A stretch of DNA of 64,000 bases from Agreia sp. Leaf210. GTDB lineage: Bacteria; Actinomycetota; Actinomycetes; Actinomycetales; Microbacteriaceae. A program made the position numbers and the translations under genes. The stretch lies in contig NZ_LMKK01000001.1 of NCBI RefSeq assembly GCF_001421485.1, forward strand, positions 315,717 through 379,716, given 5' to 3'. The stretch's first letter is position 1, and every line of letters starts with the position of its first letter. Positions 40,430 through 64,000 of this stretch are shown here, piece by piece. The notes beneath the pieces are model-generated. The model did not search any database and was not told the origin of the DNA. It saw nothing but the letters and a program-made list of their open reading frames with translations.

Positions 40430-40440
40430 TCCCAAAGACA

Positions 40441-40482
40441 CGAGACCAGATTGATTCGGGGTCAAATCTGGTCTCGTTTTTT
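40441..40482 (+). terminator. Rho-independent terminator
   Basis: Perfect 12-base stem CGAGACCAGATT (40441-40452) / AATCTGGTCTCG (40465-40476), 12-base loop, then six T. It lies 11 bases after the stop codon of the secreted-protein gene. Confidence 0.92.
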
Positions 40483-40530
40483 GCGCGAATGATGCGTGCT
40501 TGTCTCATGCGGTCGCTCAGGGCATCAAAG

Positions 40531-40599
40531 GCTTGGGTATCGTCGCTGCTGACAGAAACGTTCTTGAAATGGAACCGCTGCCAGGGCGAGTACTCCTAG
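40531..40599 (+). pseudogene. Remnant of the 3' end of a YrdC-domain gene
   Basis: The stretch resembles 39136-39204, the last about 22 codons of the intact YrdC gene, including GTCGCTGCTG and the 15-base identity GCCAGGGCGAGTACT just before the stop (CCTAG here, ACTAA in the intact gene). No upstream part remains. It is either a relic of a second allele or one end of a duplication created by insertion of the intervening 1.3 kb. Confidence 0.65.
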
Positions 40600-40821
40600 G
40601 CCAGCACTCTTCACTGATGTCCGACATCTAGGGGCGGACTCACATGCGATGTCTGATCGATCTTGAACTCGGGCGGTCTCGGCATTCACGACAACGATGC
40701 CGTGGTGAGCTCGGGTGACGAGGATGTATCTCCATCTGTCACTGCGTTAGCCGTGGTCAAAGCATTACCCCTGGAGGTTCTGATGTAACGCAAATCGAGC
40801 CAAAGTAGCAAAGGAATACCC

Positions 40822-41933
40822 ATGTATATATTTTCGTCTGGGATCGGTAGATCCGCTCGGGCCGTCGCTATCGCATCCTGTGTGATGCTCGCTCTAATTT
40901 CTGCTCCTACAACCGCACAAGCTGACCCTTCAGCTCCAAGCGAACAATCGGATGGCTCTGATGGAGGGATGAAGACCGACTCCCCAGGCGGAACAGAACA
41001 GACCGACCCCCCAGGCGGAACAGAACAGACCGACCCCCCAGGCGGAACAGAACAGACCGACCCCCCAGGCGGAACAAACAGACCGACCCCCCAGGCGGAA
41101 CAGAACAGACCGACCCCCCGGGCGGAACAGAACAGCTGGATCCCTCAGATCTGGGTGAACAAGCTAAAGACCTGGATCAGAGCGAATTTGTGTCCCCGTC
41201 ACGCACAGAGCTGCCCGTGGTCGCAGGTACCCGGGTCAGGCTAGGAGAGGGTGGAGACTGCACCGTGGGCGTAGTCCTAACAAAGAGGCCAGGGTATTTC
41301 GAATATTTCGATCCGAAGTTTAGGGCGACCCGCTTCGGTATTATCGCTGGCCACTGCGCACACCGAGTAGGTGAAGCTGTTCTGGTAGGTCGGACGGTTG
41401 TAGGTTCTGTGGTCTCGCGTGATCCGCACATCGACGTGTCGCTATTCAAAATAGAGCCGGAGCGGCATGGGCACTATGACTGTCACCCCACCTCCTTTGG
41501 GCCACATTGCTTTGGCGTAAATTTCACCTACTCACCTCGGGGATTCGGGAAGGTCATCCTTCGACCGGGCGAGAGGCAAGCTTCGACGGCAATTCCGATG
41601 ACCGGAACTGGTGTCCCAACAATTGCCGAACAGTATTGCATCAGCGGCTCCACAAGCGGCCTCGACTGCCGATTTAGCGAAGCTAGTATTCCCCCGGACT
41701 CCGCGTGGACGCGCTCCAACGTACCGCGCGCCGCATTCAATCAATGGCATAACGTGCAACCAGGCGATTCAGGAGGCCCGGTGGTGAGTGTCAACGGAAA
41801 GTTCTATGGCATCGTGACTGATGCCGGACACCTGCTCCGCTCCGACTCACGTTTTGAAGACCTAACCGGGTATGTACCCGCAGGGCTGGTGTTCCAATAC
41901 GCAAGAGGGTACTCAATAGCTCCTCCCAATTAG
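40822..41933 (+). pseudogene. Secreted trypsin-like serine protease, frameshifted in its linker repeat
   Basis: ATG 40822 (after AAAGGAATACC) encodes a signal peptide ending near TAQA and then tandem GGTEQTDPP repeats. One repeat unit (41068-41093) is 26 instead of 27 bases, shifting the frame; the downstream frame from about 41190 to TAG 41933 encodes a chymotrypsin-fold domain with the triad AGHCAH (His), HIDVSLFKI (Asp) and PGDSGGPVV (Ser). Adding one base after 41076 gives one 370-residue protein: signal, Pro/Thr-rich linker, protease. Alone, the second half lacks export and the first half lacks the enzyme. It may be a phase-variable gene, a pseudogene or an assembly error. Confidence 0.8.
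40987..41135 (+). repeat. Tandem 27-bp repeat in the protease linker
   Basis: Units at 40987-41013, 41014-41040, 41041-41067, 41068-41093 (26 bp, one G missing), 41094-41120 and a 15-base partial unit to 41135. Units 1-3 are identical. Each encodes GGTEQTDPP in the original frame. Confidence 0.9.
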
Positions 41934-42014
41934 TCCTTGTTGACCGGTCCGCGCGCGGCCCCGAAAGGATCTATCGGGTCGCGCCGCTCTGTCGAGCTGT
42001 CCGCAAACGATCCC

Positions 42015-42314
42015 TCAGCGGGCGCGACTCTGCCATTCAAAGCTCACCTTCGCGGCAGGCGTCAGCTCAGCAGCAAGCGCAACGCTGAGGTCCCTTCCGT
42101 GCGCTGTCCATCGCTCTTCATCGGCCGAACTGCTCCAGCCTCGCTCGGGCGAGAACCTTGTCCGCCAAAGCTCCATCCACGTCTTTAAGTCGGAGGTGAG
42201 TGAACTGGAGAGATTCAGGTCAGTTGGCGTGAGTGCGTAATTTTGGCCGCCGTCTTCCCACAAGGGCCAGTTATGGCCCCAGTCGGGAAACATTCGGATC
42301 AATCTGATCGGCAT
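42015..42314 (-). CDS. Conserved hypothetical small protein
   Basis: 99 residues, rich in Trp, with PDWGHNWPLWEDG near the N-terminus and SSSLTSDLKTWMELW in the middle. I recall similar short actinobacterial proteins with DYG(H)xxPLWE and LSxDLTxxLxxW patterns of unknown function, so this is likely a real family. TAAACT six bases upstream of the ATG at 42314 supports a leaderless transcript and fixes the start. Confidence 0.65.
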   Translation of the reverse strand: MPIRLIRMFPDWGHNWPLWEDGGQNYALTPTDLNLSSSLTSDLKTWMELWRTRFSPERGWSSSADEERWTAHGRDLSVALAAELTPAAKVSFEWQSRAR

Positions 42315-42348
42315 TGATCGAGTTTACGTCTGCACGAATTAACGTCAT

Positions 42349-42380
42349 AGTGCCCGTAAGACGGTGGTCTTACGGGCACT
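42349..42380. repeat. 32-nt hairpin repeat, copy 1
   Basis: Perfect inverted repeat AGTGCCCGTAAGAC / GTCTTACGGGCACT with a GGTG loop. It lies between two divergent genes, so it is not simply a terminator. Copies with the same AGTGCCCG...CGGGCACT ends and the same 32-base length are at 44989 and 45594. Confidence 0.85.
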
Positions 42381-42457
42381 CGCTCATCGACTCAAGACCA
42401 AGTACTCGTTGAGGGATCGGCTAACGGACGCCTTGCCTTCAACGATACGGTCGTGAA

Positions 42458-42838
42458 ATGACTTCTCCCGATGATGCTAGCCAGACTCTAGATGCTGCCG
42501 AAGACGAGCTGTTGGCTGCCATGCGTTCGAGCGACCTTGTCGCGTTGGACAAGTTGATCTCTGATGACCTGATTTTTGTTGGGCCTCAAGGGCACGCCAT
42601 CACCAAAGAGGCCGACCTGGAGTCACATCGCACGGGAACGACCAACTTTGAACGGATCGATGAACTGGAACGGCGCTCTGTCACGACGGGTGGACGCGGC
42701 ACTACTGATACGGAAGCCACCGCAGTGCTACGTGTAGATGGTGCACCGATTCAGATGCGCTTGCTCTGGCACCGCGAATGGCAAACCGTCGATGGGCAAT
42801 GGAAAGTTGTCGGAGGTTCCGTTGTGGGGATTGAATAG
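42458..42838 (+). CDS. DUF4440/SnoaL-like NTF2-fold protein
   Basis: 126-residue protein with the DUF4440 pattern: AAEDELLAAMRSSDLVALDKLISDDLIFVGPQG, then alternating strands ending RLLWHREWQTVDGQWKVVGGS. The first quoted stretch spans residues about 11-45. NTF2-fold proteins of this group are mostly of unknown activity. TACGGT six bases before ATG 42458 indicates a leaderless start. Confidence 0.8.
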   Translation: MTSPDDASQTLDAAEDELLAAMRSSDLVALDKLISDDLIFVGPQGHAITKEADLESHRTGTTNFERIDELERRSVTTGGRGTTDTEATAVLRVDGAPIQMRLLWHREWQTVDGQWKVVGGSVVGIE

Positions 42839-42971
42839 CGCCCTGACATCCATCTATCCGTTGATATGCCGTTGCCCGTTAACGGATCGTCTAAAGGGCA
42901 TCAGCAAACTGGCCGATCGCTACAAGTTCAGCTGGGATGCCCGCAAGCCGATGGATAAGCGAATAGTGACG

Positions 42972-43385
42972 TCATGCCGCGGGTTGCGCGCTCGAACTCG
43001 TCGTGGCAATGGTCTGACGGTACGCGGCGATCTTGCGTTCCAGCGCAGCCACATGCCGCTGAACCTCGGCCTGTCGGTCGAGGACGGCCGCGTGGTGCTG
43101 TTCGAGGAGGGCCAGACGTTCAGCATCATCAGCGCCGGCCCGGTACGCGGCCGCGTACTCGCGCATCTCGTGGACGCTCATCCCCGTGCCACGGAGCATT
43201 ACTGTTCCGGCAAGCCAACTCAATGCAGCCGTGTCGTACCGACGCCAACCGTCCGGACTACGGCCGGGTGCGGGTGCGATGCCTTCCTTCTCGTAGTAGC
43301 GGATCGTGTCGACGGTGATGCCGAGTAACTCCGCGGCGACGCTGATCGTGACGGACTGGTCGACGTGGACCTCCGGAAGAAGCAT
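42972..43385 (-). CDS. MerR-family transcriptional regulator
   Basis: 137 residues: MerR helix-turn-helix (VAAELLGITVDTIRYYEKEGI), RRYDTAALSWL, then a coiled-coil dimerisation helix. No effector-binding Cys is present, so it belongs with the aldo/keto-reductase-linked MerR group rather than the metal sensors. It is divergent from the aldo/keto reductase gene, with a MerR-type operator between them. ATG at 43385 is used; the longer frame reaches into the operator. Confidence 0.88.
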   Translation of the reverse strand: MLLPEVHVDQSVTISVAAELLGITVDTIRYYEKEGIAPAPGRSPDGWRRYDTAALSWLAGTVMLRGTGMSVHEMREYAAAYRAGADDAERLALLEQHHAAVLDRQAEVQRHVAALERKIAAYRQTIATTSSSAQPAA

Positions 43386-43400
43386 GCTCTGAGTCTCCCA

Positions 43401-43430
43401 CTTGACATGGTGTGCGCACCAGGGTCGAGA
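43401..43430. promoter_or_regulatory. MerR-type operator/promoter for the aldo/keto reductase
   Basis: TTGACA (43402-43407) overlaps the dyad TGGTG-TGCG-CACCA (43407-43420), flanked by CTTGAC and GGTCGAG. A palindrome starting at the -35 and filling a long spacer is the usual MerR arrangement. The -10 is not clear. Confidence 0.5.
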
Positions 43431-43473
43431 GTTAGGTCGTCCGGGTCGACCCGGCGGTGAACGGAGAACACAC

Positions 43474-44457
43474 ATGCAGCAGATTCCTCTCGGCTCCCAG
43501 GGCCTCGTCACGTCCTCGCTCGGACTCGGGTGCATGGGGATGAGTGCCTTCTACGGCGGCGCCACCGAAACCGGTTCCGTCGAGGGTATCCGCCGAGCAC
43601 TAGACCTCGGGATCACGTTGTTCGACACAGCAGAGGCGTACGGACCGTTCGAGAACGAGCAGTTGCTTGGCCGGGCTCTCGGTGCCGACCGGGACCGGGT
43701 GGTCGTCGCGTCGAAGTTCGCCACAGACTTCACCGACGACGGCACCCCGATCGGCCTTGACGGGTCCCCAGAGCATGCCCGTCGCGCGATCGACCGGTCT
43801 CTCGGCCACCTCGGTGCCGACCACGTCGACCTCTGGTATCTGCACCGCGCCGACCCGAACGTGCCGATCGAGGACACCATCGGTGCAATGAGCGAAGCCG
43901 TCGCCGCCGGCAAGGCCCGGTACATCGGCGTCTCAGAAACCTCAGCAGAAACCCTGAGACGGGCGCACGCAACGTTCCCGATCACAGCGATCCAGTCCGA
44001 GTACAGCCTCTTCGAGCGTGACGCCGAGCACAATGGCGTCCTCGACACCGCCTCGGAGCTCGGCATCGGGTTCGTACCGTTTTCCCCGCTCGGCCGCGGG
44101 TTTCTCTCCGGCACCGTCACCCGGAAAGACGACCTGCCTGAGGGGGACGCCCGCCGGAACCTTCCCCGGTTCTCGGACGAAGCCATCGACGCGAACCTCC
44201 GCGTCGTCGACGCGCTCGGGGTCATCGCCGATGAGAAAGGCGTCACCACCGCGCAGCTCGCACTCGCGTGGCTCATCCAGGCTGGCACCGTCCCGATTCC
44301 CGGCACCACGAAAGCGTCGCGGGTCGAGGAGAACGTCGCCGCCGCGGACGTTGTGCTCACCGCCAGCGACCTCGAACAGATCGAGGCTGCCTCACCGCAC
44401 GGCGTGGCCGTCGGAACCCGCAATACCGAAGCAGGGATGGCGCGAGACCGCGGCTGA
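43474..44457 (+). CDS. Aldo/keto reductase
   Basis: 327-residue NADPH-dependent TIM-barrel oxidoreductase of the AKR13/YajO-like group. Seen: GLGCMGMSAFYG, FDTAEAYGPFENE (active-site Asp and Tyr), VVASKFATDF (catalytic Lys), DLWYLHRADP (catalytic His) and IPGTTKASRVEEN (cofactor phosphate site). It reduces aldehydes or ketones; the physiological substrate is not known. RBS ACGGAG precedes ATG 43474. The divergent MerR gene probably controls it. Confidence 0.93.
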   Translation: MQQIPLGSQGLVTSSLGLGCMGMSAFYGGATETGSVEGIRRALDLGITLFDTAEAYGPFENEQLLGRALGADRDRVVVASKFATDFTDDGTPIGLDGSPEHARRAIDRSLGHLGADHVDLWYLHRADPNVPIEDTIGAMSEAVAAGKARYIGVSETSAETLRRAHATFPITAIQSEYSLFERDAEHNGVLDTASELGIGFVPFSPLGRGFLSGTVTRKDDLPEGDARRNLPRFSDEAIDANLRVVDALGVIADEKGVTTAQLALAWLIQAGTVPIPGTTKASRVEENVAAADVVLTASDLEQIEAASPHGVAVGTRNTEAGMARDRG

Positions 44458-51378: not shown

Positions 51379-52356
51379 ATGACCGTGATCGACAACGCCA
51401 TCTACGTCGACGGGGTGCGCACCGACAACCCGGAGACCCTCGACGAGACGTTCGAGCTGCTCACCGAGCGTCGCGGCTTCGCGTGGATCGATCTCGACCG
51501 GCCGAGCCCCGAAGAGCTGCAGGCCGTCGCCGACGAGTTCGAGCTGCACCCTCTGGCCATCGAAGACGCCCTGGCCGGTCACCAGCGGGCGAAGCTGGAG
51601 CGCTATGGAGACACCCAATTCGTCGTGCTGCGACCCGCTTTCTACCGCGACGACATCGAGAAGGTGGAGTTCGGCGAGGTGCATCTGTTCGTCGGCAGCA
51701 CCTTCGTGGTGACGGTTCGCCGGGCCGCGCGGCCGGATCTCAACGTCGTTCGAGAACGTCTCGAGGCCGCGCCGGATCTGCTCGCGAGAGGTCCGCAAGC
51801 GGTGCTGTACGCCGTTCTCGACCGTGTCGTCGACGACTACGCGCCGGTGGCCCTCGGGCTCGAGAACGACATCGACGAGATCGAAGACGAACTCTTCGAA
51901 GGGGGCGCCACCGAGCTCTCCCGCCGCATCTACGAGCTCTCCCGCGAGGTCATGATGTTCCAGAGGGCCACCCATCCACTACTCGATGTCGTCGGCGAAC
52001 TCAAGCAACACGTCGGCGACCACGCGGTCGATATCGAGGTGGCGCGCGGCTTTCGCGACGTGCTCGATCACACGCACCGCATCGTCGACCGGATCGACGC
52101 CTATCGCGCACTGCTCGAAAACGCGCTCACCACACACCTCACCCTCGTGGGTCAAGACCAGAACGACCAGGTCAAGAAGATCTCGTCGTGGGCCGCCATC
52201 CTGTTCGCCCCGACCCTCGTCGGAACCATCTACGGCATGAACTTCGACAACATGCCCGAGCTGCACTGGACCTTCGGCTACCCGCTCGCCGTCGCGGCCA
52301 TGGTCGCCATGGGCGGAGTGCTCTACAGCGTGTTCCGACGCAAGGGATGGCTCTGA
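51379..52356 (+). CDS. corA: CorA-family magnesium/cobalt transporter
   Basis: 325 residues. Long cytoplasmic N-domain (FAWIDLDRPSPEELQ, HPLAIEDAL), long helix (residues about 170-260), then two C-terminal membrane helices separated by the selectivity motif YGMNF and MPEL. Acts as a homopentameric divalent-cation channel. It follows the DUF3515 gene by 22 bases and may share its transcript. Confidence 0.95.
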   Translation: MTVIDNAIYVDGVRTDNPETLDETFELLTERRGFAWIDLDRPSPEELQAVADEFELHPLAIEDALAGHQRAKLERYGDTQFVVLRPAFYRDDIEKVEFGEVHLFVGSTFVVTVRRAARPDLNVVRERLEAAPDLLARGPQAVLYAVLDRVVDDYAPVALGLENDIDEIEDELFEGGATELSRRIYELSREVMMFQRATHPLLDVVGELKQHVGDHAVDIEVARGFRDVLDHTHRIVDRIDAYRALLENALTTHLTLVGQDQNDQVKKISSWAAILFAPTLVGTIYGMNFDNMPELHWTFGYPLAVAAMVAMGGVLYSVFRRKGWL

Positions 52357-52440: not shown

Positions 52441-53655
52441 ATGATGACCGACGCCGCTCCCCTGCAGGCCCCTTCCGACAGCGTTCTCACGCTGACCGCA
52501 CCCCAGCCCGTAGCTCCGGTCGCGGCCACCTCCGCGCCCGCGATGGCACCGAAGGTCGATCCCGCGGCGCTGCCCGGTCTCGATGCCAAGGTCGACACCT
52601 ATCTCGACACTCTGGTCAGCACCGACACGCGCTCTCCCGCCTTCGCCGCCAAGGCGAACGACGTGCGCACCATGGGCGACGTCGACATCCGCCAGGCGGC
52701 GGACTCGTCGAACAGGCTTCTCGCGACGCCGGTGAAGGCCCTCCAGTCGGGTGGCCTCTCCGAGAGCTCGAAGATCGGTTCCACGCTTCTCGAACTGCGC
52801 CGCACCGTCGAAGACCTCGACCCCAGCGAGCAGAGCATCGAGCGCAAGATCCTCGGCTTCATTCCTTTCGGCCGCAAGATCGCCGACTACTTCCGCAAGT
52901 ACGAGAGCGCGCAGTCTCACCTGAACGCCATCATCAAGGCGCTCTACGACGGCCAAGACGAACTGCGCAAAGACAACGCCGCGCTGAACCTCGAGAAGCA
53001 GCACCTCTGGGAGACGATGCAGCGGCTCAACGAGTACATCTACGTCGCCGAGCGCCTCGATGTGAAGCTCTCGGCCAAGATCGCCGAGTTCGACAGCACC
53101 GACCCCGACAAGGCGAAGGCGCTGCGCGAAGACGTGCTCTTCTACGTGCGCCAGAAACACCAGGATCTGCTGACCCAGCTCGCCGTGTCGATCCAGGGCT
53201 ACCTGGCCATCGACGTGATCATCAAGAACAACCTCGAGCTCATCAAGGGCGTCGACCGGGCGACCACCACCACCGTCTCGGCGCTCCGCACGGCCGTGAT
53301 CGTGGCGCAGGCCCTGGCCAACCAGAAGCTCGTGCTCGATCAGATCACCGCGTTGAACACCACCACCTCGAACATGATCGAGGCCACCTCGAAGATGCTG
53401 GCCGATCAGTCCGCGTCGATCCAGTCGCAAGCTGCATCGGCCACCGTGGGTCTGCCGCAGCTCCAGGCCGCCTTCGCCAACATCTACGCGACCATGGACT
53501 CGATCTCGGAGTTCAAGGTGCAGGCACTCGACAGCATGGCTCAGACCATCGGAGTTCTCGAGACCGAGACAGAGAAGGCCAAGCCCTACATCGAGCGCGC
53601 GCGCCGCAGCGAGACGACCGAGGTCGCGAGCACGCTCGACCTCGACAAGCGCTGA
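52441..53655 (+). CDS. TelA-family (toxic anion resistance) protein
   Basis: 404 residues. After a Pro/Ala-rich N-terminus the body is helical with TelA family patterns: LLELRRTVEDLDPSEQ, ILGFIPFGRKIADYFRKYESAQ, IKALYDGQDELRKDNAAL and GYLAIDVIIKNNLELIKGVDR. TelA proteins are linked to tellurite and envelope-stress loci and may organise membrane-associated complexes; no biochemical activity is established. RBS-like GAGGAC precedes ATG 52441/52444. First gene of the nine-gene cluster. Confidence 0.92.
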   Translation: MMTDAAPLQAPSDSVLTLTAPQPVAPVAATSAPAMAPKVDPAALPGLDAKVDTYLDTLVSTDTRSPAFAAKANDVRTMGDVDIRQAADSSNRLLATPVKALQSGGLSESSKIGSTLLELRRTVEDLDPSEQSIERKILGFIPFGRKIADYFRKYESAQSHLNAIIKALYDGQDELRKDNAALNLEKQHLWETMQRLNEYIYVAERLDVKLSAKIAEFDSTDPDKAKALREDVLFYVRQKHQDLLTQLAVSIQGYLAIDVIIKNNLELIKGVDRATTTTVSALRTAVIVAQALANQKLVLDQITALNTTTSNMIEATSKMLADQSASIQSQAASATVGLPQLQAAFANIYATMDSISEFKVQALDSMAQTIGVLETETEKAKPYIERARRSETTEVASTLDLDKR

Positions 53656-53680
53656 GTCGACGGGTCGAGCACGTCACGCA

Positions 53681-54199
53681 ATGGGCTTTTGGCAGAACCT
53701 CCGCGACTCGGTGACGGGGCGAACTGCTGAGCGCGAATACGAGTTCGAGCTGCCACCGGCTCCGACCAGCGCCGACATCCTGTCGTCGATCGCCGATGTG
53801 CAGGCAGACACGACCGGCAAGGTGCCGCCCATCGTCATCGCGCGCATCAACCGCATCGCGAACACCGTGGCCGTGATGGTTCCGCGGCTCGATCAGCTCG
53901 GCGGCGGCAGTGCGCAAGCGCACACCGTCGTCTCGACCGCCACAAGCTATCTGCCCGAGGCCGTCGGCGGCTACCTCCGGCTCCCCCGCGATTTCGCCGA
54001 CCGGCGGGCCGTCTACAAGGGCAAGACCTCGCTCATGCTCCTGTGCGACCAGCTCGACCTGCTGGGCGCGACGCTCGACAAGATCTCGGATGCCGTGTCT
54101 CGCGCCGACGCCGCCGCTCTCGTCGCGCACGGCCAGTTCCTCGCGGAGAAGTTCCAGCCCTCATCGAGCCTGACCCTCCCGTCCGAACCCCTGAGCTGA
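53681..54199 (+). CDS. Unknown helical protein paired with TelA
   Basis: 172 residues, N-terminus MGFWQNLRDSVTGRTAERE, then mainly helical with no membrane segment or known domain. In other genomes TelA genes are often paired with a short partner (XpaC-type); this protein holds the same place but I cannot identify it as XpaC. It begins 25 bases after the TelA gene and ends 11 bases before the AAA+ gene. Confidence 0.75.
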   Translation: MGFWQNLRDSVTGRTAEREYEFELPPAPTSADILSSIADVQADTTGKVPPIVIARINRIANTVAVMVPRLDQLGGGSAQAHTVVSTATSYLPEAVGGYLRLPRDFADRRAVYKGKTSLMLLCDQLDLLGATLDKISDAVSRADAAALVAHGQFLAEKFQPSSSLTLPSEPLS

Positions 54200-54210
54200 G
54201 CGAAGACACC

Positions 54211-55851
54211 ATGACACCCTCTGATCCGCACGAGCTGCGCCAGGCTCTCGACGCCCTCGTCGCGGCGGCGCAGACTGCCGGCCTCGATTCCGCCGCCGCC
54301 CGAGACGAGGGCGTGCGCATCGCCGCCGCCGTCGCCGAGTCCGCCATCGGCGCATCCGTTCAATGGGTCGATCAGACCGGCGCGGGCAGCACAGACGAGT
54401 TCTTCGAAGCCGCGTCGAGCGCGAGGCGCTGGCGTGCGTCGCCCACCGACCTGCTGAGCAGACTGGCCGCCGACTCTCCGCAGCACGCCGGCGACTATGC
54501 GAAGGCGCTCACCGGTGTCGTCGCGGCCGCAAGCGAACTGGGCGAGCCCTCGATCGGCGTTCTCGGTGCGGCGTCTGCCACCGCAGCCGCCCAACTCGCG
54601 GGTGCACGGCAGGCTCCTTCTCTTCCTCCGCTCTCGCGCACCGAGGCCACCCTGTTCCCCTCGACGACGCTGTCTGCGGTTCCCCCGGTCGGCCAGCAGC
54701 TCAGCGCCGACCACTTCGATGTTCAGCAGCCCGACTTCGCACGGCCGGGCGATGCCACCATGGCCGAGCTCGCCCGCAAAGCCGGCCTCACCCCGTCCGA
54801 ACCGCAACCGGATGCTCCGACTGCCGAGCAGCCCGCTCCCGCCGACGCGCCGGTCGCGGCCCAAGACGAAGAGAAGCCGAAGAAGAGCGTCGAAGAGCTA
54901 CTCGCCGAGCTCGACAGCCTGATCGGACTCGACAGGGTCAAGAGAGAGATCCACCGGCAGACGCAGCTGCTGCGCGTCGACCAGCTGCGAACGGCCGCGG
55001 GGCTCACCACTCCGACGCTCACAAGGCACCTCGTCTTTCTCGGCAACCCGGGCACGGGCAAGACCACCGTGGCCCGTCTCGTCGCCGGCATCTACGCGGC
55101 CCTCGGCATCCTGTCCAAGGGCCATCTCGTCGAGGTCGACCGCTCCGAACTCGTGGGCGGCTATCTCGGGCAGACGGCGACCAAGACGAGCGAGGTCGTG
55201 GCCGGGGCCATCGGCGGCGTTCTCTTCATCGACGAGGCCTACGGGCTGGCGCTCGACCAGTACGGCGCCGAGGCCATCACGACCATCGTGAAAGACATGG
55301 AGGATCACCGCGACGACCTCGTGGTGATCGTGGCCGGCTATCCCGAGCCGATGCGCGGATTCATGGAGACGAACCCCGGGCTCGCCAGCCGGTTCTCGAC
55401 CTCCATCACGTTCCAGGACTACACCGACACCGAGCTGCGCGACATCTTCGTGCGCCTGGCCGAATCGTCCGACTTCGAGCCGACGCCCGAGGCGCTCGAG
55501 CGGTTCGAACAGATCGTGTCGATCGAACCCCGAGACGAGGGTTTCGGCAACGGTCGCTACGCCCGCAATCTGCTCGACAAGGCGATCGCACGGCACGCCT
55601 GGCGCCTGCGCGACGTCACGGAGCCGACGCTCGACGACCTGCGCCTGCTGCTGGCCGACGATCTCAACGACTCGAACGACGGCGAGGTGCGGGGCACCGA
55701 CGACGAGACGATCGACTCGCCGATCCTGGTCGACGTGCCGCAGACTGATCAGGCGAGCGCGCTCGAAGCCGAGTCGTCCGATGCCGCGCCCACCGCAGAT
55801 CACCCCTCAGACGATCCCGCAGAACCGACAACGTCGAAGGACACCGAATGA
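54211..55851 (+). CDS. CbxX/SpoVK-type AAA+ ATPase
   Basis: 546 residues. Residues 1-220 are Ala/Pro-rich and helical. The AAA+ module of the CbxX/CfqX family follows: LDSLIGLDRVKREIHRQ, Walker A LGNPGTGKTTVAR, the pore-region LVGGYLGQTATKT, Walker B GGVLFIDEAYGL, and sensor region NPGLASRFSTSITF. Such ATPases remodel partner proteins (Rubisco activase, ESX EccA). No type VII secretion gene is nearby, so a partner in this cluster is likely. Overlaps the next gene by ATGA. Confidence 0.92.
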   Translation: MTPSDPHELRQALDALVAAAQTAGLDSAAARDEGVRIAAAVAESAIGASVQWVDQTGAGSTDEFFEAASSARRWRASPTDLLSRLAADSPQHAGDYAKALTGVVAAASELGEPSIGVLGAASATAAAQLAGARQAPSLPPLSRTEATLFPSTTLSAVPPVGQQLSADHFDVQQPDFARPGDATMAELARKAGLTPSEPQPDAPTAEQPAPADAPVAAQDEEKPKKSVEELLAELDSLIGLDRVKREIHRQTQLLRVDQLRTAAGLTTPTLTRHLVFLGNPGTGKTTVARLVAGIYAALGILSKGHLVEVDRSELVGGYLGQTATKTSEVVAGAIGGVLFIDEAYGLALDQYGAEAITTIVKDMEDHRDDLVVIVAGYPEPMRGFMETNPGLASRFSTSITFQDYTDTELRDIFVRLAESSDFEPTPEALERFEQIVSIEPRDEGFGNGRYARNLLDKAIARHAWRLRDVTEPTLDDLRLLLADDLNDSNDGEVRGTDDETIDSPILVDVPQTDQASALEAESSDAAPTADHPSDDPAEPTTSKDTE

Positions 55852-57179
55852 GCACGACCGCAGCCGCGCCCCCGCCGCCGGTACCCCAGGCATCCCCGCG
55901 GCCGAACGCCGCGTCGACGACGGCCGTGCAGGCTCAGAGCGCACCGGCCCCCGCGCCCGCGAAGAAGACGCGCTCCACTCCCGCCACCCTCCGCCTGCTG
56001 CTCGCCGTCTCCGTGCTCGCCAGTCTGGCGTTCGGAGCCGCCGGCTTTCAGACGGGGTCGTCGCAGGCCAGGTCCACGGCCGACGCGAGTGCCGAGGCCG
56101 CCCAGCTGATCGGCATCCAGTCCGTGCGCAACGATCTGGTGCGTGCCGACGCGATCGCCGCCAACGCGTTCCTCGTCGGTGGCTTGGAGCCCGCCGATCA
56201 GCGAGCCGAGTACGACACCGCGATCGACGACGCCACCCGCGAGATCACCCTCCTCGCCGCCGACGACAAGGCCGGAGACACCGACTTCGCCAAGGTCAAC
56301 GCCGAGGTCGCCATCTACACCGGCCTCATCGAGCAGGCGCGCGCGAACAACCGTCAGGGCTTTCCCGTCGGCGCCGCTTACCTGTCGCAGGCCTCCGCCC
56401 TGCTGAACGACAGCACCCTTCCGCAGCTCGAAGCCCTGGTTCTCGCGAGCGCCGACCGGGCGGCGGGCAGCTTCACCGCCTCGACCGTGTCGCTGGTCTG
56501 GCTGATCATCGCCCTCGCGGCCCTGATCGCTCTGATCTGGGTACACCTCTGGATCACGCGGCGCTCTCACCGCTACCTCAACTGGCCACTGCTGATCGCC
56601 GCCGTCGCCATGCTCATCGTCGGCGTCATCGGTGTGGTCACCTTCTCGAACACCACGGGGGCAGCCATCGAGGCCAGGCAGAACTCCTACGCCAAGACCC
56701 TCGCCCTCTCTCAGGCGTACACCTCGGCCACCGAGGCCAAGTCGCTCGAGAGCTTCACGCTCATCAAGCGCGGCTCAGGGCAGACTCTCGAGGCCGACGT
56801 GCAGACGGCCATCGCCGACGCTCAGACACGTCTCGACTCGAGCGGCAAGAACTACCTCATCAGCGACGATCTCAGCAACGGCTTCGACTCGTGGGTCGAG
56901 AAGCACGCAGAGATTCGCAAGCTCGACGACGCGGGTGACTGGGACGGCGCGGTCGCGCAGGCGATCAGCCAGGAGCCCGGCAGCGCCAACGCGGCCTTCA
57001 CCGCGTTCAGCACCGCGGCACAAGACGACATCGCCTCGAGTGCCGCCACGACGAAGAACGCGCTCGACGCGGGCGGCACTCAGTCAGCGCTCCTCGGCTG
57101 GCTCTTCCTCGTGGCCGGCCTCGCCGCCGCCGTGCTCTCCTGGCGCGGCGTCTCCCTTCGACTCAAGGAGTACCGATGA
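55848..57179 (+). CDS. glnX: GlnX-like membrane sensor protein
   Basis: 443 residues with four membrane helices at about 48-68, 207-230, 239-262 and 414-432. Between helices 1-2 and 3-4 are two extracytoplasmic helical domains of about 140 residues each, resembling the four-helix sensory domains of chemoreceptors (NDLVRADAIAANAFLVGG). The Pro/Ala-rich N-terminus is cytoplasmic. Order and layout match mycobacterial GlnX, which passes the GlnH ligand signal to PknG. Its start and stop overlap both neighbours by 4 bases. Confidence 0.82.
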   Translation: MSTTAAAPPPPVPQASPRPNAASTTAVQAQSAPAPAPAKKTRSTPATLRLLLAVSVLASLAFGAAGFQTGSSQARSTADASAEAAQLIGIQSVRNDLVRADAIAANAFLVGGLEPADQRAEYDTAIDDATREITLLAADDKAGDTDFAKVNAEVAIYTGLIEQARANNRQGFPVGAAYLSQASALLNDSTLPQLEALVLASADRAAGSFTASTVSLVWLIIALAALIALIWVHLWITRRSHRYLNWPLLIAAVAMLIVGVIGVVTFSNTTGAAIEARQNSYAKTLALSQAYTSATEAKSLESFTLIKRGSGQTLEADVQTAIADAQTRLDSSGKNYLISDDLSNGFDSWVEKHAEIRKLDDAGDWDGAVAQAISQEPGSANAAFTAFSTAAQDDIASSAATTKNALDAGGTQSALLGWLFLVAGLAAAVLSWRGVSLRLKEYR

Positions 57180-58168
57180 GCGCCATCCGTTCACGTACGG
57201 GCCGCATCGCGATCATCGCGACGCTGATCGGCATCCTTGCGCTCACCGCCTGCGCGCCGCGATCGGGAAGCGACGACCTCGGTCTCACTCCCACCCCGAC
57301 GCCCACCGAGAGTGCACCGAGCAACCCGGCGCCCGCGTCGACCTGCAAGAACGTCGAGGGCGAAGTGCAGCCGTCGTACTCCCCCATCTCGCCCGACTCG
57401 ATTCCCGCGGGTGGCGCGGTCGACGCCATCCGCGCCCAGGGCGTGCTCCGGGTCGGCGTCTCCGCCGACACGCTGCTCATGGGCTCCCGCAGCCCGCTCA
57501 CGGGCCAGATTGAGGGCTTCGACATCGACGTCCTGCATGAGATCTCTCGGGCGATCTTCGGCGATCCGAACAGGTTGCAGTTCAAGGTCATCACGTCGGC
57601 CCAGCGCCTCGACGTGCTGACCCCCGGCGCCGATGGCAAGACGCAGGTCGACATCGTTGCGCGCACCATGACCATCAACTGCGCCCGCTGGGAGACCATC
57701 GCGTTTTCGACGGAGTACTACGACGCTGGCCAGAAGGTTCTCGTCGGAGCCGACTCCGACGCGACGTCGATCGACGCCCTCAGCGGCAAGAAGGTCTGCG
57801 CCCCCGCCAGCACGACCACGCTCACACGGCTTCAAGACGAGTTCCCCAATGTCGAGGCCGTCTCGGCCGCGACACACACCGAGTGCCTCGTACTGTTCCA
57901 GCAGGGCAAGGTGGATGCCATCACCGGCGACGACACGATCCTCGCCGGATTCGCCGCGCAAGACCCGTACGCCAAGGTCGTGGGCGAGCCGATCAGCGCC
58001 GAGCCCTATGGCCTGGGAATGCCGGCCGACAAGGTCGAGCTCGTGCAGTTCGTGAACGGTGTGCTCGACCGCATGCGCAGTGACGGAACGTGGACGAGCC
58101 TCTACACGAAGTGGCTCAGCGTGCTGGGCCCGGCGCCGGCTCCGCCCGTGCCCGTCTACGGGCGTTGA
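57176..58168 (+). CDS. glnH: GlnH-like amino-acid-binding lipoprotein
   Basis: 330 residues. Signal peptide with lipobox LALTAC, then a Thr/Pro linker and a bacterial extracellular solute-binding (family 3) domain: LRVGVSADTLLMGSRSP, IEGFDIDVLHEISRAIFG, VDIVARTMTINCARWETIAFS, GKKVCAPASTTT and VDAITGDDTILAG. No ABC permease or ATPase is present, so it is a sensor rather than a transport component, as for mycobacterial GlnH, which reports aspartate/glutamate availability through GlnX. Confidence 0.9.
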   Translation: MSAIRSRTGRIAIIATLIGILALTACAPRSGSDDLGLTPTPTPTESAPSNPAPASTCKNVEGEVQPSYSPISPDSIPAGGAVDAIRAQGVLRVGVSADTLLMGSRSPLTGQIEGFDIDVLHEISRAIFGDPNRLQFKVITSAQRLDVLTPGADGKTQVDIVARTMTINCARWETIAFSTEYYDAGQKVLVGADSDATSIDALSGKKVCAPASTTTLTRLQDEFPNVEAVSAATHTECLVLFQQGKVDAITGDDTILAGFAAQDPYAKVVGEPISAEPYGLGMPADKVELVQFVNGVLDRMRSDGTWTSLYTKWLSVLGPAPAPPVPVYGR

Positions 58169-58244
58169 CACGGACTCTGACGCGTAGCGCAGAGCACCTG
58201 AAGCACCTGACACCCCCAACTTCGATCCGCCGAGAGGAGCAGCG

Positions 58245-59384
58245 ATGACGATGACCGCCAGCGGAAGCACGCCAGTCGCTCCCGGGCGCCTCGGAGAGGC
58301 GATCGACCCGGGTGAGCTGCTGAAATACCTCACCGGCCTCGGCGAGTGGGTCGACCGGCAACGAAAAGAGCTCGATCGCCTCGGGGCCGCGGCCCTCGCA
58401 TCGCAGGAGCCCGATTCCTACACCTCCGACATCGTTCTCGCCGAGACGCTGTGGGAGGCCACGCGAAAACGCCGTGAGAGCCTCGAAAGCGTCTGGGACT
58501 CGGGCCGCGTCGACACCGTCGCCAGGCAGAAGATGTCGCAGCTGATCTGGGGCCGGTTGGACTCCGGAGGCGGGGCAGAACTCGTCTCGCTCGTCGAGGC
58601 CGTCAGACTCGCCGACGCTCTCGTCTCGCAGCTGACCACTCGACTCAGCCTCGACCCGCGCGCGGCCGGCACCACCGCGCGCATCGTCGGCCTGCGCGCT
58701 GAACTCGAGCGGTCGCGCGACCTGGCCGCATCCGACCCCGACAGCGCACAGCGGGTCTCGACCCTGCGCAACCGGCTCGAGACCCTCGCCGAGAAGGCGG
58801 GCCGAGGCGCCGATGTGACCGGCCCGCTCGGCCAGCTGGTGCAGGATTCGGCGCATCTCGAACGCGACCTCATCGTCGCCAGTTCTCAGAAGCGCGACCT
58901 GGCCAGGGATGCGCGCAAGGCCGCAGACGACGCCGCGGCCGCAGAGCGACGCGAGCCGGTGCTGCGGGCCCTGGCCGACCGGTGCCGCCGCGAGATCGTC
59001 GACCCGCCTCGCCTGGCGATTCCCGACGTGTCGAAGCTCGGACCGGTGCCGCAGACGCGTGCCGCCCTCGACGCCTGGACCGCGCGCCTCGCCCTGGTGA
59101 ACCGCGCCTTCGAGGCGGTCGAAGACGCGTACGCCGGTCAACTCCGCGAGCGCGCCGAGTTGCGCTACCGCCTGTCGGGCTACCACGCGAAGGCCGAGAG
59201 CTCCGGCCGTTCCGCGTCGCCCACGGTCGCCGCCGGTTACATCGAGGCCAAAGAGGCCGTCGACACCACTCCGTGCGACCTGCGCCTCGCCCGCTTCTAC
59301 GTCGAGCAATACCAATTTCTCACCCGTGACCTGCCGCCGGCATCCTCGCCGCGTCAAGGTCAGGAAGGACGCTACACGTCATGA
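58245..59384 (+). CDS. Coiled-coil protein of unknown function in the pknG cluster
   Basis: 379 residues, almost entirely charged and helical (coiled coil over about 130-260), no signal peptide or membrane helix. One Cys pair (DRCRREIVDPPR and TTPCDLRL). No family recognised. RBS GAGAGGAGC precedes ATG 58245. It overlaps pknG by ATGA, so the two are likely made in equal amounts; it could be an adaptor or scaffold for the kinase. Confidence 0.8.
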   Translation: MTMTASGSTPVAPGRLGEAIDPGELLKYLTGLGEWVDRQRKELDRLGAAALASQEPDSYTSDIVLAETLWEATRKRRESLESVWDSGRVDTVARQKMSQLIWGRLDSGGGAELVSLVEAVRLADALVSQLTTRLSLDPRAAGTTARIVGLRAELERSRDLAASDPDSAQRVSTLRNRLETLAEKAGRGADVTGPLGQLVQDSAHLERDLIVASSQKRDLARDARKAADDAAAAERREPVLRALADRCRREIVDPPRLAIPDVSKLGPVPQTRAALDAWTARLALVNRAFEAVEDAYAGQLRERAELRYRLSGYHAKAESSGRSASPTVAAGYIEAKEAVDTTPCDLRLARFYVEQYQFLTRDLPPASSPRQGQEGRYTS

Positions 59385-61702
59385 CCGATGTCCAGCACTG
59401 CCAGCAGCCCGGCTGCACGGGCGTGATCGAAGACGGTTACTGCAACGTCTGCGGTTCTCCCGCTGCGCCCAGCCCACTTCCCCCCGCTTCGGGCACCGGC
59501 ACGGCCGCCGCGGCATCGCCCTCGGCCAAGCTCGGCACCGGGTTCTCGGCCGGACCGCAGACCGGCGCCGGGGCCGACCCCGACTTCGCGCAGGCCGGAT
59601 CGACCCGCACCGGCCGCACCTCGTCGGCGCGACTCGCCACGGCGGCCCTCGGATCGGCGCGCACCGCGGCGACCGGCTCGAAGGCCACCCGCCGATTCGG
59701 AACCACCTCCACGCGCCTCCGCGGCCCACGCCTCGGCGCCGGGCTCACGACGGTTCCCACCGAGCCGCCCGCAGATCCGCTGAAAGCGGTCATGGCCGTC
59801 GCCGAGCTGCCGGAGGCGAAGCGATTCTGCTCGAACTGCGGCAAGCCCGTGGGCCGCGGTCGCGACGACAAGCCCGGTCGCACCGAAGGATTCTGCCCGA
59901 ACTGCCGCACGCCCTTCTCCTTCACCCCGCAGCTCAAGCCGGGCGACGTCGTGGGCAGCCAGTACGAGGTCGTCGGATGCCTCGCGTTCGGTGGCCTCGG
60001 ATGGATCTACCTCGCCCGTGACCAGAACGTCTCGGGCCGCTGGGTGGTTCTGAAGGGTCTGCTCAACTCGGGCGATCCGGATGCCTATGCCGCGGCGATC
60101 ACGGAACGCCAGTTCCTCGCCGAGGTCGAGCATCCGCTGATCGTCGAGATCTACAACTTCGTGATGTTCAACGGCGCCGGCTACATCGTGATGGAGTACG
60201 TGGGCGGTCCGTCGCTCAAGGTGATCCTCAAAGAGCGCATGAAGGCGAACAACGGCGTCGTCGACCCGCTGCCGGTCGACCAGGCCCTCGCCTACGTGCT
60301 CGAGATCCTGCCCGCCTTCCAGTACCTGCACGACATCAATCTGCTGTTCTGCGACTTCAAGCCCGACAATATGATCCAGGTCGGCGACACGGTGAAGCTG
60401 ATCGACCTGGGTGGCGTGCGCCGCATCGACGACCAGACTTCGGCCATCTTCGGAACGGTCGGATTCCAGGCACCAGAGGTCCCCGATGTGGGGCCGTCGG
60501 TCGCCGCCGACATCTACACGATCGGCCGCACCCTCGCCACGCTCGTCCTCGACTTCCGCGGCAATCAGACGACCTTCGTGTCGTCGCTGCCCGATGTGGC
60601 GGACACGCCCGTGTTCCAGACGTACGACTCGTTCTATCGGCTGCTCGCCAAGGCCTGCGCCTTCGACCCGTCAGACCGTTTCGCGTCGGTCGACGAGCTG
60701 CGCGCGCAGCTGCTGGGTGTGCTGCGCGAGGTCGTGGCCACCGACCGTGGGCCGGGTCACCCCGCGCTGCACTCCGCGGCATCCGTTCTCTTCGAGGCGC
60801 CCGTCGCCGATGTCGTCGACCGACCGCTGCCCTGGGACGCCCTGCCCGGTCTCAAGGTCGATGAGTCCGACCCCGCGCGCAGCTGGCTTGCCGGCGTGAA
60901 CATGGAAGACCCGGCCGCGCGCCTGATCGCCCTCGAGTCCGCCCCGAACGTCACGGTCGAGATCCGTCTCGCGCGTGCCCGTGCGGCCATCGAGTCGGGC
61001 AATTTCCAGGCCGTCGACGCCGTGATGAGCGAGATCCTCACCGACGATCCATGGGAGTGGCGTGCCGTCTGGGTCGCCGGTCTCGCCGAACTCGCGAAGG
61101 GAGACGCCCGCAGCGCCCGCGCGTCGTTCAACACCGTCTACGGTCAGGTGCCCGGCGAGCTCGCCCCGAAGCTCGCCCTTGCCGCGGCCTGCGAGGCGAG
61201 CGGCGAGCCCGAGATCGCCGAGAGCCTCTACATCATCTGCGCACGTTCCGACGCGAACTACACCGCTGCGGCCGCCTTCGGCCTCGCCCGCATCCGCGAG
61301 CAGCGAGGCGACCTCGACGGCGCGCTGACAGCGCTCGACCTCGTCACCCCGACCCGCAGCTCGTACGTCGACGCCCGTCGTCGACGCGCGGAGCTGCTGG
61401 CGACCTCGAAGCGTGGACTCGCCTCGCTGGCCGCCGCGCTCGACAGCGTCGCCACGGTGTCGATCGACTCGAGGTCGCGAGTCGAGCTCACCGCCAGCGT
61501 CCTGGCGTCTGCCCTGGCCGTGGTGCGTGATTCCGGGCCATCCACCGATGCGGTGGTCGGAGGCATCCCCGCCCAGGAGGGACCGCTCCGCGACGGTCTC
61601 GAGCGCGCGTATCGCGAATTGGCGGGTCTCACTGAGAACCAGGCGGAGCGCGTGCACCTGGTCGACGAGGCCAACCGCGTTCGACGGTGGACCCTGTCAT
61701 GA
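59381..61702 (+). CDS. pknG: PknG-type serine/threonine protein kinase
   Basis: 773-residue soluble kinase. N-terminal zinc-ribbon CQQPGCTGVIEDGYCNVCG, a rubredoxin-like pair CSNCGKP...CPNCRTPF (residues about 148-183), a kinase domain (residues about 190-460) with Gly-loop LAFGGLGWIYLA, Lys in WVVLKGLL, catalytic CDFKPDN and the metal site IDLGGVRR (DLG for DFG), then helical TPR-like repeats to the C-terminus. This is the exact PknG layout. In mycobacteria it phosphorylates the FHA protein GarA to adjust glutamate/2-oxoglutarate flux; no GarA gene is in the window. Confidence 0.95.
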   Translation: MTDVQHCQQPGCTGVIEDGYCNVCGSPAAPSPLPPASGTGTAAAASPSAKLGTGFSAGPQTGAGADPDFAQAGSTRTGRTSSARLATAALGSARTAATGSKATRRFGTTSTRLRGPRLGAGLTTVPTEPPADPLKAVMAVAELPEAKRFCSNCGKPVGRGRDDKPGRTEGFCPNCRTPFSFTPQLKPGDVVGSQYEVVGCLAFGGLGWIYLARDQNVSGRWVVLKGLLNSGDPDAYAAAITERQFLAEVEHPLIVEIYNFVMFNGAGYIVMEYVGGPSLKVILKERMKANNGVVDPLPVDQALAYVLEILPAFQYLHDINLLFCDFKPDNMIQVGDTVKLIDLGGVRRIDDQTSAIFGTVGFQAPEVPDVGPSVAADIYTIGRTLATLVLDFRGNQTTFVSSLPDVADTPVFQTYDSFYRLLAKACAFDPSDRFASVDELRAQLLGVLREVVATDRGPGHPALHSAASVLFEAPVADVVDRPLPWDALPGLKVDESDPARSWLAGVNMEDPAARLIALESAPNVTVEIRLARARAAIESGNFQAVDAVMSEILTDDPWEWRAVWVAGLAELAKGDARSARASFNTVYGQVPGELAPKLALAAACEASGEPEIAESLYIICARSDANYTAAAAFGLARIREQRGDLDGALTALDLVTPTRSSYVDARRRRAELLATSKRGLASLAAALDSVATVSIDSRSRVELTASVLASALAVVRDSGPSTDAVVGGIPAQEGPLRDGLERAYRELAGLTENQAERVHLVDEANRVRRWTLS

Positions 61703-62946
61703 GCGACGCACAGCTGCACGGCGACGCCGTGGACCCCGTGGACCCCGTGGACCCCGTAGCAGAGCCCGTCATCGAAGCCGTCGTAGAGCCTGACCCTGAA
61801 CCTGACGCGGCGCCTGCCGCGGAACCCGTGGTCGAGGCCGCTCCGGCGGTGCCGATCCTGTGCCCCGCGTGCGGCACGGTGAACGATCCCGACGCGAAGT
61901 TCTGCGAGGAGTGCGGCACCCAACTCGGCGAGCTCGTCGAGGTGAGCTCCGGCCCCGATGCCAGCGAGGCTGAAGCCGGGGTCGAACCAGACCAGGTCAC
62001 CTCGTCGACGTCGGCACCACGGCGCGCCTGCGTCTATTGCGGAGGCAGCATCGCCGACGACGGCTATTGCGAACTCTGCGGCAAGCCCGCTCAGAGCGAA
62101 CGCGACCACTGGCAGGAAGCGCCCGCGGCCTGGGTCGGCGGAGTGTGCGACCGCGGCATCCGGCACGAGATCAACGAAGATGCCATGGCCCTGGCCGCAG
62201 ACCCGCAGGCCGGCGAGTTCGCCGTCTTGGTCGTGTGCGACGGGGTCTCGTCGACTCCGGGCTCCGACAAGGCGAGCCTCGCCGCTGCTCGCGCTGCGAC
62301 CGCCCATCTCGCGGCCGGGCGATCGACCGACCTGGCAGAAGGCACCAGCGACGAACTTGCGCAGGCCCGATGGTCTGCCCGGATGCTCGAGGCCGGCGAA
62401 AGGGCGAGCGCCGCGATCTACGAGGCGATCGGCGAGCTCGCGGCGAGAACGAATCCGCCGTCGTGCACCTTCGCCGCAGCGGTCATCGACGGCCCCCTCG
62501 TCGTGGTCGGAGGCGTCGGAGACAGCCGGGTCTATTGGATCGCGGACAGCGGCAAGTCCCGACAGCTGACCACCGACGACTCGTGGTCACAAGAGATGAT
62601 GGCCCACGGCATGTCGCGCCAGCAGGCGGAGAGCGCCCCGCAGGCGCACTCCATCACGCGCTGGCTCGGCGCCGACTCTCCCGACGAGGCCCCCCACGTC
62701 GTGCCGACCTATCCCACGGGAGCCGGATGGATTCTGGTCTGCTCGGATGGGCTCTGGAACTACTGCTCCGACGCGGACGACCTCGCCGAGCTCGTGCACA
62801 GGGTCGTGGGAATGGTGGGAAGCAACCCCGTTCAGGTCTCGTCGTCTCTCGTCGACTGGGCCAATGAGCAGGGCGGCCAAGACAACATCACCGCCGCGCT
62901 CGCTCGATTCGATAGCGTTGTACCTACACCGGCCCAGCCGGCCTGA
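61699..62946 (+). CDS. PP2C-type serine/threonine phosphatase with two N-terminal zinc ribbons
   Basis: 415 residues. After an acidic DPV-repeat N-terminus come two zinc ribbons, CPACGTVNDPDAKFCEECG and CVYCGGSIADDGYCELCG, then a PP2C domain (residues about 145-410) with RHEINEDAMAL, VVCDGVSSTPGSD, GVGDSRVYWI, CSDGLWNY and GGQDNITAAL, covering the metal-binding Asp residues. The second ribbon resembles the one at the PknG N-terminus. It overlaps pknG by ATGA and is the obvious counter-enzyme to the kinase. Confidence 0.94.
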   Translation: MSDAQLHGDAVDPVDPVDPVAEPVIEAVVEPDPEPDAAPAAEPVVEAAPAVPILCPACGTVNDPDAKFCEECGTQLGELVEVSSGPDASEAEAGVEPDQVTSSTSAPRRACVYCGGSIADDGYCELCGKPAQSERDHWQEAPAAWVGGVCDRGIRHEINEDAMALAADPQAGEFAVLVVCDGVSSTPGSDKASLAAARAATAHLAAGRSTDLAEGTSDELAQARWSARMLEAGERASAAIYEAIGELAARTNPPSCTFAAAVIDGPLVVVGGVGDSRVYWIADSGKSRQLTTDDSWSQEMMAHGMSRQQAESAPQAHSITRWLGADSPDEAPHVVPTYPTGAGWILVCSDGLWNYCSDADDLAELVHRVVGMVGSNPVQVSSSLVDWANEQGGQDNITAALARFDSVVPTPAQPA

Positions 62947-62971
62947 TCTATGACAGATAGAGGAGTCCCCC

Positions 62972-64000
62972 ATGGCAGAGTTCACCGCCAGCGTTTTTCA
63001 GAATGAATTCCTCTCAGACGGGGCCACAGACGTTCACGCCATCGTGACGGTCACGGTCTCGGGCGCGGGCCAGGCGGGGCAGGGGCAGGGCATGGCTGCC
63101 GGCGAGATCATCATCGTCGACACGTCAGGGTCGATGACCGGCGAGAATCTCGGCGCTGCCAAGCACGCGGCCGCGGTGGCGATCGACCAGATCCTCGACG
63201 GCACCTGGTTCGCCGTCATCTCCGGAACCGATACAGCGGCTCGAGCGTTCCCGTATCCGAACGCCCGACTTCCCATGGTGCAGATGGAGCCGGGCGCCCG
63301 CGCCGCGGCCAAGCAGGCCGTCGCCTCGTTCCAGCCCTCCGGCGGCACCGCTATGGGCACGTGGCTCACGCTCGCTCGTGAACTCTTCCAGGCCACACCG
63401 CAGGCCACCCAGCGTCACGCGATCCTTCTCACCGACGGCAAGAACGAGCACGAGTCGGCACAGGCGCTGAGCCAGGCCATCTACAACGCCACCGGCGTCT
63501 TCCAGTGCGACGCCCGCGGCGTCGGTTCACGCTGGCAGGTCGACGAGTTGCGCCAGATCGCCACCGCTCTGCTCGGCACCGTCGATCTCATCGCCAAGCC
63601 CGCCGACATGGCCGCCGACTTCGAGAGCATCATCAAGCAGTCGATGGGCCGAGGCGTGGCGTCGGCCGAGCTGCGCGTCTGGGCTCCGCAGGGGTCCGAG
63701 GTGTTGTTCGTGCGACAGGTCGCCCCCACCGTCGAAGACCTCACCACCCGCAAGACCATGGTCAACCCGCTCACGGGCTCGTACCCCACGGGATCGTGGG
63801 GTGATGAGTCGCGCGACTACCACGTCGCCGTCCGGGTCGCCTCGAAGCCCGTGGGCTCCGAGCAGCTCGCGGCCCGCGTGCAGCTGACCGTGCGCGACGA
63901 GGTCGTCGCATCCGGTCTCGTGAAGGCGCGCTGGTCGAACGACGACGCCCTCACGGCGCGGATCGACCCGGCCGTGGCGCACTACACGGGCCAGACCGAG
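62972..64000 (+). CDS. VWA-domain protein (TerY-like), 3' end outside window
   Basis: 343 residues before the window ends in open frame. RBS GAGGAG precedes ATG 62972. The von Willebrand factor A domain has a complete MIDAS: DTSGSMTGENLG (DxSxS), GGTAMGTWL (Thr) and LLTDGKNEH (Asp). The part after residue 230 is beta-rich. No signal peptide, so cytoplasmic. VWA proteins act as metal-dependent scaffolds; with the kinase and phosphatase it forms a triad recalling TerY-P loci. Confidence 0.92.
   Translation, partial: MAEFTASVFQNEFLSDGATDVHAIVTVTVSGAGQAGQGQGMAAGEIIIVDTSGSMTGENLGAAKHAAAVAIDQILDGTWFAVISGTDTAARAFPYPNARLPMVQMEPGARAAAKQAVASFQPSGGTAMGTWLTLARELFQATPQATQRHAILLTDGKNEHESAQALSQAIYNATGVFQCDARGVGSRWQVDELRQIATALLGTVDLIAKPADMAADFESIIKQSMGRGVASAELRVWAPQGSEVLFVRQVAPTVEDLTTRKTMVNPLTGSYPTGSWGDESRDYHVAVRVASKPVGSEQLAARVQLTVRDEVVASGLVKARWSNDDALTARIDPAVAHYTGQTE

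Follow-up and report, generated by a model that had tools for sequence, protein, structure and literature searches.

The kinase PknG, known from tuberculosis research, has been studied intensively and is a drug target. In Mycobacterium and Corynebacterium its gene belongs to an operon described as glnX-glnH-pknG (PMC6069109), and signalling from GlnH through GlnX to PknG is established for this three-gene system (PMC6069109, PMC9769921). A second system relevant here is the archaeal ArnA-ArnB-ArnC/D-PP2A switch (PMC6509490, PMC12852372). The Sulfolobus kinase ArnC acts on threonines close to the C-terminus of ArnB, and PP2A reverses the phosphorylation; the FHA domain of ArnA binds phosphorylated ArnB, and the ArnA zinc finger binds unphosphorylated ArnB, under nutrient control (PMC12852372).

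The locus described here shares with the mycobacterial and corynebacterial system the GlnX family, the GlnH lipoprotein, the rubredoxin/kinase/TPR architecture of PknG and the glnX-glnH-pknG order, but comprises ten genes rather than three, with an additional N-terminal zinc ribbon on PknG and a dedicated PP2C, VWA and FHA protein. In common with the Arn switch it has a zinc-ribbon FHA protein, a VWA protein with a probable beta-sandwich and C-terminal helices, a Thr-rich VWA C-terminus, a TPR-bearing Ser/Thr kinase, a phosphatase and a nutrient link. It departs from Arn in that PP2C replaces PP2A, the kinase and phosphatase are encoded in the same operon and carry ribbons of their own, the input is GlnH/GlnX, TelA and an AAA+ ATPase are present, and there is no archaellum. 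On the evidence of its parts, the locus is real, ancient and larger than an earlier note on this DNA had recognised, and represents a variant of the PknG system that would work like the Arn switch. Among the open papers searched, none joins PknG with TelA or describes the ten-gene locus, and PknG partners outside mycobacteria and corynebacteria appear to be undescribed there.

Organization of the ten-gene operon

The window, by which we mean the whole stretch of 64,000 nucleotides analysed (G000:C1:315717-379716), holds nine plus-strand genes that run from telA at 52441 to vwa, which continues past the window edge (Table 1). The nine genes and four ATGA start/stop overlaps reported in the earlier note were all found as described, the ATGA being read exactly at 55848, 57176, 59381 and 61699 by sequence inspection. 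The FHA gene that the same note had predicted outside the window lies immediately downstream and overlaps vwa by another ATGA (64249 versus 64252), giving the order telA, hyp172, AAA, glnX, glnH, cc, pknG, pp2c, vwa, fha. Convergent ddl and gpsA come next, followed by plsC and murA (all named by eye), and the operon therefore ends at fha.

Table 1. Genes of the ten-gene operon, in window coordinates unless indicated.
Gene	Position	Strand	Product and features
telA	52441..53655	+	404 aa; TelA/toxic-anion-resistance family; PF05816, E 3.5e-93; first in the conserved ten-gene order
hyp172	53681..54199	+	172 aa; small all-helical TelA-partner protein
AAA	54211..55851	+	546 aa; CbxX/SpoVK/EccA-like AAA+ ATPase; ATG at 54211; PF00004, PF17866 (AAA_lid_6)
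glnX	55848..57179	+	GlnX-family membrane sensor; NF058618; four predicted TM segments
glnH	57176..58168	+	GlnH-family solute-binding lipoprotein; SBP_bac_3; lipobox LTAC
cc	58245..59384	+	379 aa; all-helical coiled-coil protein between glnH and pknG
pknG	59381..61702	+	N-terminal zinc ribbon, Thr/Ser-rich linker, rubredoxin PF16919, kinase PF00069, TPR PF16918 (PknG_TPR)
pp2c	61699..62946	+	PP2C phosphatase, two N-terminal zinc ribbons; PF13672, PF12773; ATG at 61699
vwa	62972..64252 (window edge 64000)	+	VWA protein, 4FX5/ArnB type
fha	64249-65178, extended coordinates (L004 13966-14895)	+	zinc-ribbon FHA protein, PF00498; wholly beyond the window

Three features of the surroundings may be recorded here. 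A CorA-like magnesium transporter gene (named by eye, 51379-52356) lies on the same strand, 84 bases upstream of telA, and is possibly the first gene of the transcript. A TerC-like membrane protein (by eye) is encoded on the minus strand at about 71761-72789 in extended coordinates, roughly 6.6 kb beyond the operon. Window positions 36001-44000 have a G+C content of 0.59-0.60, compared with about 0.67 elsewhere, and possibly represent an island.

The domain names given in the earlier note hold in Pfam and NCBIfam searches, the 172-aa and 379-aa products matching no named family. PknG, for instance, matches PDB 2pzi (E 1.6e-142) and has the kinase motifs VVLK, CDFKPDN and DLG, and the catalytic Asp motifs of the PP2C phosphatase proposed to accompany GlnH-GlnX-PknG are intact on motif inspection. 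The AAA protein has Walker A and B motifs and an Arg finger, with the NCBIfam models spore_V_K, EccA and CbbX all below cut-off. For hyp172, no Pfam match was obtained and no PDB fold match for its model, which is a helical bundle (AF2, pLDDT 89). The cc protein, with no Pfam or NCBIfam family and no PDB fold match for its model, is all-helical (AF2, pLDDT 92).

Conservation of gene order and junctions

Two sets of PknG loci were compared, the first consisting of 21 loci from an even sample of the taxonomic order, and the second of 80 named loci that were best matches and are hence biased toward near relatives, some contigs being in both sets. The full gene order is found in 19 of the 21 sampled loci (one interrupted by a contig end), the two exceptions being L025 and L017, the latter a second copy within one genome. 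Sufficient flanking sequence was available for 101 PknG loci, of which 58 have ten genes, 16 have seven (glnX glnH cc pknG pp2c vwa fha) and nine have three, and the canonical relative order is kept in 100. Given these counts, the shared gene order is not due to chance.

The junctions are similarly conserved. In 55 distinct ten-gene loci, four-nucleotide overlaps occur at AAA/glnX in 54, glnX/glnH in 55, pknG/pp2c in 49, cc/pknG in 48 and vwa/fha in 47. Since the two modules distinguished in the earlier note meet precisely at AAA/glnX, the locus is one unit, and the conservation of order and overlaps across ten-gene loci makes it a single ancient locus. The claim of one co-inherited system, for which a gene-order search across Actinomycetota had been suggested, is thus borne out across families, the gene order being shared by many Actinomycetota. 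The notion that two modules were merged here is not, the seven-gene form being widespread and apparently ancestral, and telA-hyp172-AAA apparently a later addition in the ten-gene lineage.

In one locus (L056, G580:C1:1195679-1204300), pp2c and vwa are separated by about 7.3 kb that include genes, named by eye, for an aminotransferase and for an aldehyde dehydrogenase; short repeated segments surround this stretch. A loss of VWA and FHA from this locus was considered and rejected, the VWA gene of G580 lying about 7.3 kb beyond pp2c.

Predicted ligand sensing by GlnH and GlnX

GlnX scores 305 bits against NF058618 (E 7.4e-91), above the NCBIfam cut-off of 250, and 111 against the stricter equivalog model for PknG-activating GlnX, for which the cut-off is 780; its four TM segments are predicted from hydropathy. 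GlnH matches the M. tuberculosis GlnH structures 6h1u and 6h2t (E 1e-73). With pocket residue roles taken from the M. tuberculosis protein (PMC6069109) and in its numbering, R147, R169 and D250 are kept in ten-gene GlnHs and T162 is variable, whereas W232 is replaced by His in 53/64 and K161 by Arg in 60/64. Aspartate or glutamate, the ligand named for mycobacteria in the earlier note, is doubtful here because of the W232 replacement, and, because both W232 and K161 are replaced, the ligand may be a different one.

In some Propionibacteriaceae (L132, L130, L135, L129, L146), GlnX, often divergent, is found with the other genes of the cluster but without GlnH. The input is therefore modular, and to judge from these gene contents the GlnH lipoprotein is presumably dispensable or replaced there.

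The VWA and FHA proteins

The FHA protein consists of two zinc ribbons and an FHA domain and is an N-terminal-ribbon homologue of ArnA. A profile search of the PDB with the FHA protein returned ArnA (8s05_C, E 3.9e-12; 5a8i, E 1.8e-11) ahead of GarA, and a single-sequence search gives the same ranking. The VWA protein has an ortholog of solved structure in Catenulispora acidiphila (PDB 4FX5; E 2.6e-108, residues 3-425 of 426). No function had been assigned to 4FX5, which Hoffmann et al. 2019 found to share its tripartite fold with vWA2, a paralog of ArnB (PMC6509490). Through this orthology, and so indirectly, the protein is predicted to comprise a VWA domain, a beta-sandwich and a C-terminal helix bundle. 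The match to ArnB itself (8s05_A, E 8e-8) spans the VWA domain only, and the C-terminus did not match the ArnB_C family, Pfam assigning it to VWA_3_C (PF18571). We therefore say that the system would work like Arn, and do not claim membership in Arn.

The MIDAS of the VWA protein and the FHA motifs are intact on motif inspection. The C-terminal tail of the VWA protein, here DTASTKTTRVRK, has the consensus DEMxLDTxSTKTxRV with a near-invariant DTxSTKTxRV, STKT being present in 84/89 sequences, and its mean conservation exceeds that of the VWA domain (0.90 versus 0.64). The motif is LDSTKT or LDSTRT in Streptomyces VWA paralogs. In 82/84 sequences the residue at +3 from the second Thr of STKT is V or I. 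The +3 position is one that FHA domains read. The tail could also be conserved for a reason other than phosphorylation.

Zinc ribbons and the occurrence of VWA

Two ribbons are found in 84/95 PP2C and 85/89 FHA proteins, and none in VWA or cc. The N-terminal ribbon of PknG is present in 62/63 ten-gene rows, the exception (L147) resembling a broken draft gene, and in 6/6 rows without GlnH, as opposed to 0/8 mycobacterial-type three-gene rows; the strict pattern used misses several ribbons that can be seen in Streptomyces. The PknGs of L012, L132 and L033 have two tandem N-terminal ribbons.

Of the genomes tested, all 8 that have the larger cluster encode a member of the VWA family, which was found in 0/9 PknG-positive genomes lacking the cluster (eight three-gene genomes and G404) and in 0/18 PknG-negative genomes. 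The two exceptional sampled loci follow the same pattern: L025, in G404, encodes a PknG without ribbon in a genome without VWA, and L017 is a three-gene copy with ribbon inside a genome holding the full cluster elsewhere. The PknG ribbon thus tracks VWA in the genome and is absent from mycobacterial-type three-gene loci. This co-occurrence, behind which lie few independent losses, is what docking to VWA predicts; docking of the ArnA kind is an analogy, and zinc ribbons are common.

A proposed model: the operon as an Arn-like switch

The best joint explanation, to which we assign a probability of roughly 0.55, is that the ten-gene operon encodes a membrane-coupled, Arn-like phospho-threonine switch, for which we infer all of the phosphorylation and binding steps and the output. 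GlnH would bind an extracellular amino-acid-like ligand and signal via GlnX to cytoplasmic PknG, with PknG as writer and PP2C as eraser. The VWA protein would be the main local substrate, with the phospho-threonine or phospho-threonines in its DTxSTKTxRV tail, and the zinc-ribbon FHA protein would read the phosphorylated tail, as ArnA reads ArnB. The N-terminal ribbons would dock PknG, PP2C and FHA onto VWA, as the ArnA ribbon docks on ArnB. TelA, hyp172 and the AAA+ ATPase would be the probable output, at the envelope, and GarA possibly a second, shared target.

GarA as a possible main target

The genome also encodes GarA with a TDTT site, and PknG may therefore mainly act on GarA. Under this canonical PknG function, the locus would chiefly control GarA/OdhI and 2-oxoglutarate metabolism, with the additional proteins serving only to tune or localise PknG. 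It would fit with glnX, glnH and pknG being the most conserved core and with the presence of GarA in 45/45 genomes tested. The Thr-Thr site of GarA occurs in 25/25 PknG-positive versus 15/21 PknG-negative genomes (Fisher p 0.006), but the association is not independent of ancestry, with 3 to 11 independent pairs only, and once ancestry is counted it is weak and no more than suggestive. In addition, GarA is universal whereas PknG is patchy (29/248 genomes), and a main action on GarA leaves the dedicated PP2C, FHA and VWA proteins and the conserved VWA tail unexplained. We consider this account less likely than the Arn-like switch.

TelA and the comparison with Ter and defence systems

In the Arn-like switch, TelA and the AAA+ ATPase are linked to the other components by gene position only, and it is from gene position that a role of TelA as output is suggested. 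TelA is found in 27/29 PknG-positive versus 56/219 PknG-negative genomes (uncorrected for ancestry). Without PknG it is mostly of a more distant type, often standing alone beside a hyp172 relative. The independent scattering of genes in relatives, which the earlier note had named as a refutation, is seen for the distant-type TelA, and not for the TelA type of this locus or for VWA, which was found only with the larger cluster. In one locus (L071, G139), AAA directly follows a cluster-type telA (70% TelA) without pknG or hyp172. A TelA-XpaC pair was considered for hyp172 and rejected, neither it nor the relatives beside stand-alone telA genes giving an XpaC match in Pfam.

The earlier note had placed the locus among tellurite-type systems, and a Ter-type stress system (TelA, a TerY-like VWA, kinase and PP2C) that borrowed an amino-acid sensor would account for the TelA family match and the adjacency of kinase, PP2C and VWA, features shared with TerY-P triads and TelA operons; TelA mutants of Listeria are, moreover, more sensitive to nisin (PMC12791056). 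However, no TerD-family protein was found in the genome, the VWA is of the 4FX5/ArnB type, and seven-gene loci without telA and AAA exist, mostly in genomes without TelA, so that the tellurite framing has to be abandoned as very improbable. A conflict- or defence-like phospho-signalling system is more improbable still, for although actinobacterial zinc-ribbon kinases, PP2C and VWA proteins can accompany GTPases or proteases, as in the sets adjoining GAP1-N2 GTPases (Kaur et al. 2020, PMC7159879) and a protease/cc, PknG-like and VWA paralog set in Streptomyces, the PADLOC matches here are to generic kinase, AAA and PP2C domains only, the locus has no effector gene, and it is conserved between housekeeping genes.

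Distribution and evolution of PknG loci

Across the 248 genomes of the taxonomic order, two independent PknG models agree on the 29 that exceed the cut-off. The locus is seldom found in Microbacteriaceae, where screening 60 genomes for TelA led to one other (G580) and the named set adds two more (L086, L137). In a PknG tree of 113 rows, nearly all ten-gene PknGs fall together in a group whose base is occupied by PknGs from seven-gene loci of Acidimicrobiia and Micromonosporaceae, and the three-gene PknGs lie beside seven-gene Streptomyces and relatives. When the tree is rooted with Streptomyces paralogs its base is a polytomy, and among the lineages in it the three-gene group alone lacks cc, pp2c, vwa and fha. 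An ancestral seven-gene form is thus suggested by parsimony, and not by the tree root. On this basis the seven-gene form looks ancestral, with telA-hyp172-AAA gained on the ten-gene branch, and parsimony favours the mycobacterial three-gene locus as a reduced form. The Streptomyces-like loci L044, L211 and L212 include the paralogous set, which consists of a fusion of a trypsin-like protease to a cc-like C-terminus, a ribbon-bearing PknG-like kinase, and a VWA protein that has a zinc ribbon at its C-terminus as well as the LDSTKT/LDSTRT motif.

A bolder and more tentative proposal, to which we give somewhat less than an even chance, is that PknG was originally the kinase in a cross-domain switch of the Arn kind, with VWA as substrate and hub, FHA as reader, and ribbons that tag kinase, phosphatase and reader for docking. 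The mycobacterial three-gene system would then be a reduced descendant that has lost VWA, PP2C, FHA and the ribbon, and keeps only the GarA branch.

Implications

If the Arn-like switch proposed here is correct, PknG would have a phosphatase and a phospho-reader dedicated to it, as well as a substrate whose phospho-tail can be read, and the archaeal ArnA-ArnB nutrient switch would have a bacterial counterpart. The orphan crystal structure 4FX5 would gain a testable function from locus context, and TelA would be tied to nutrient-controlled phosphorylation.
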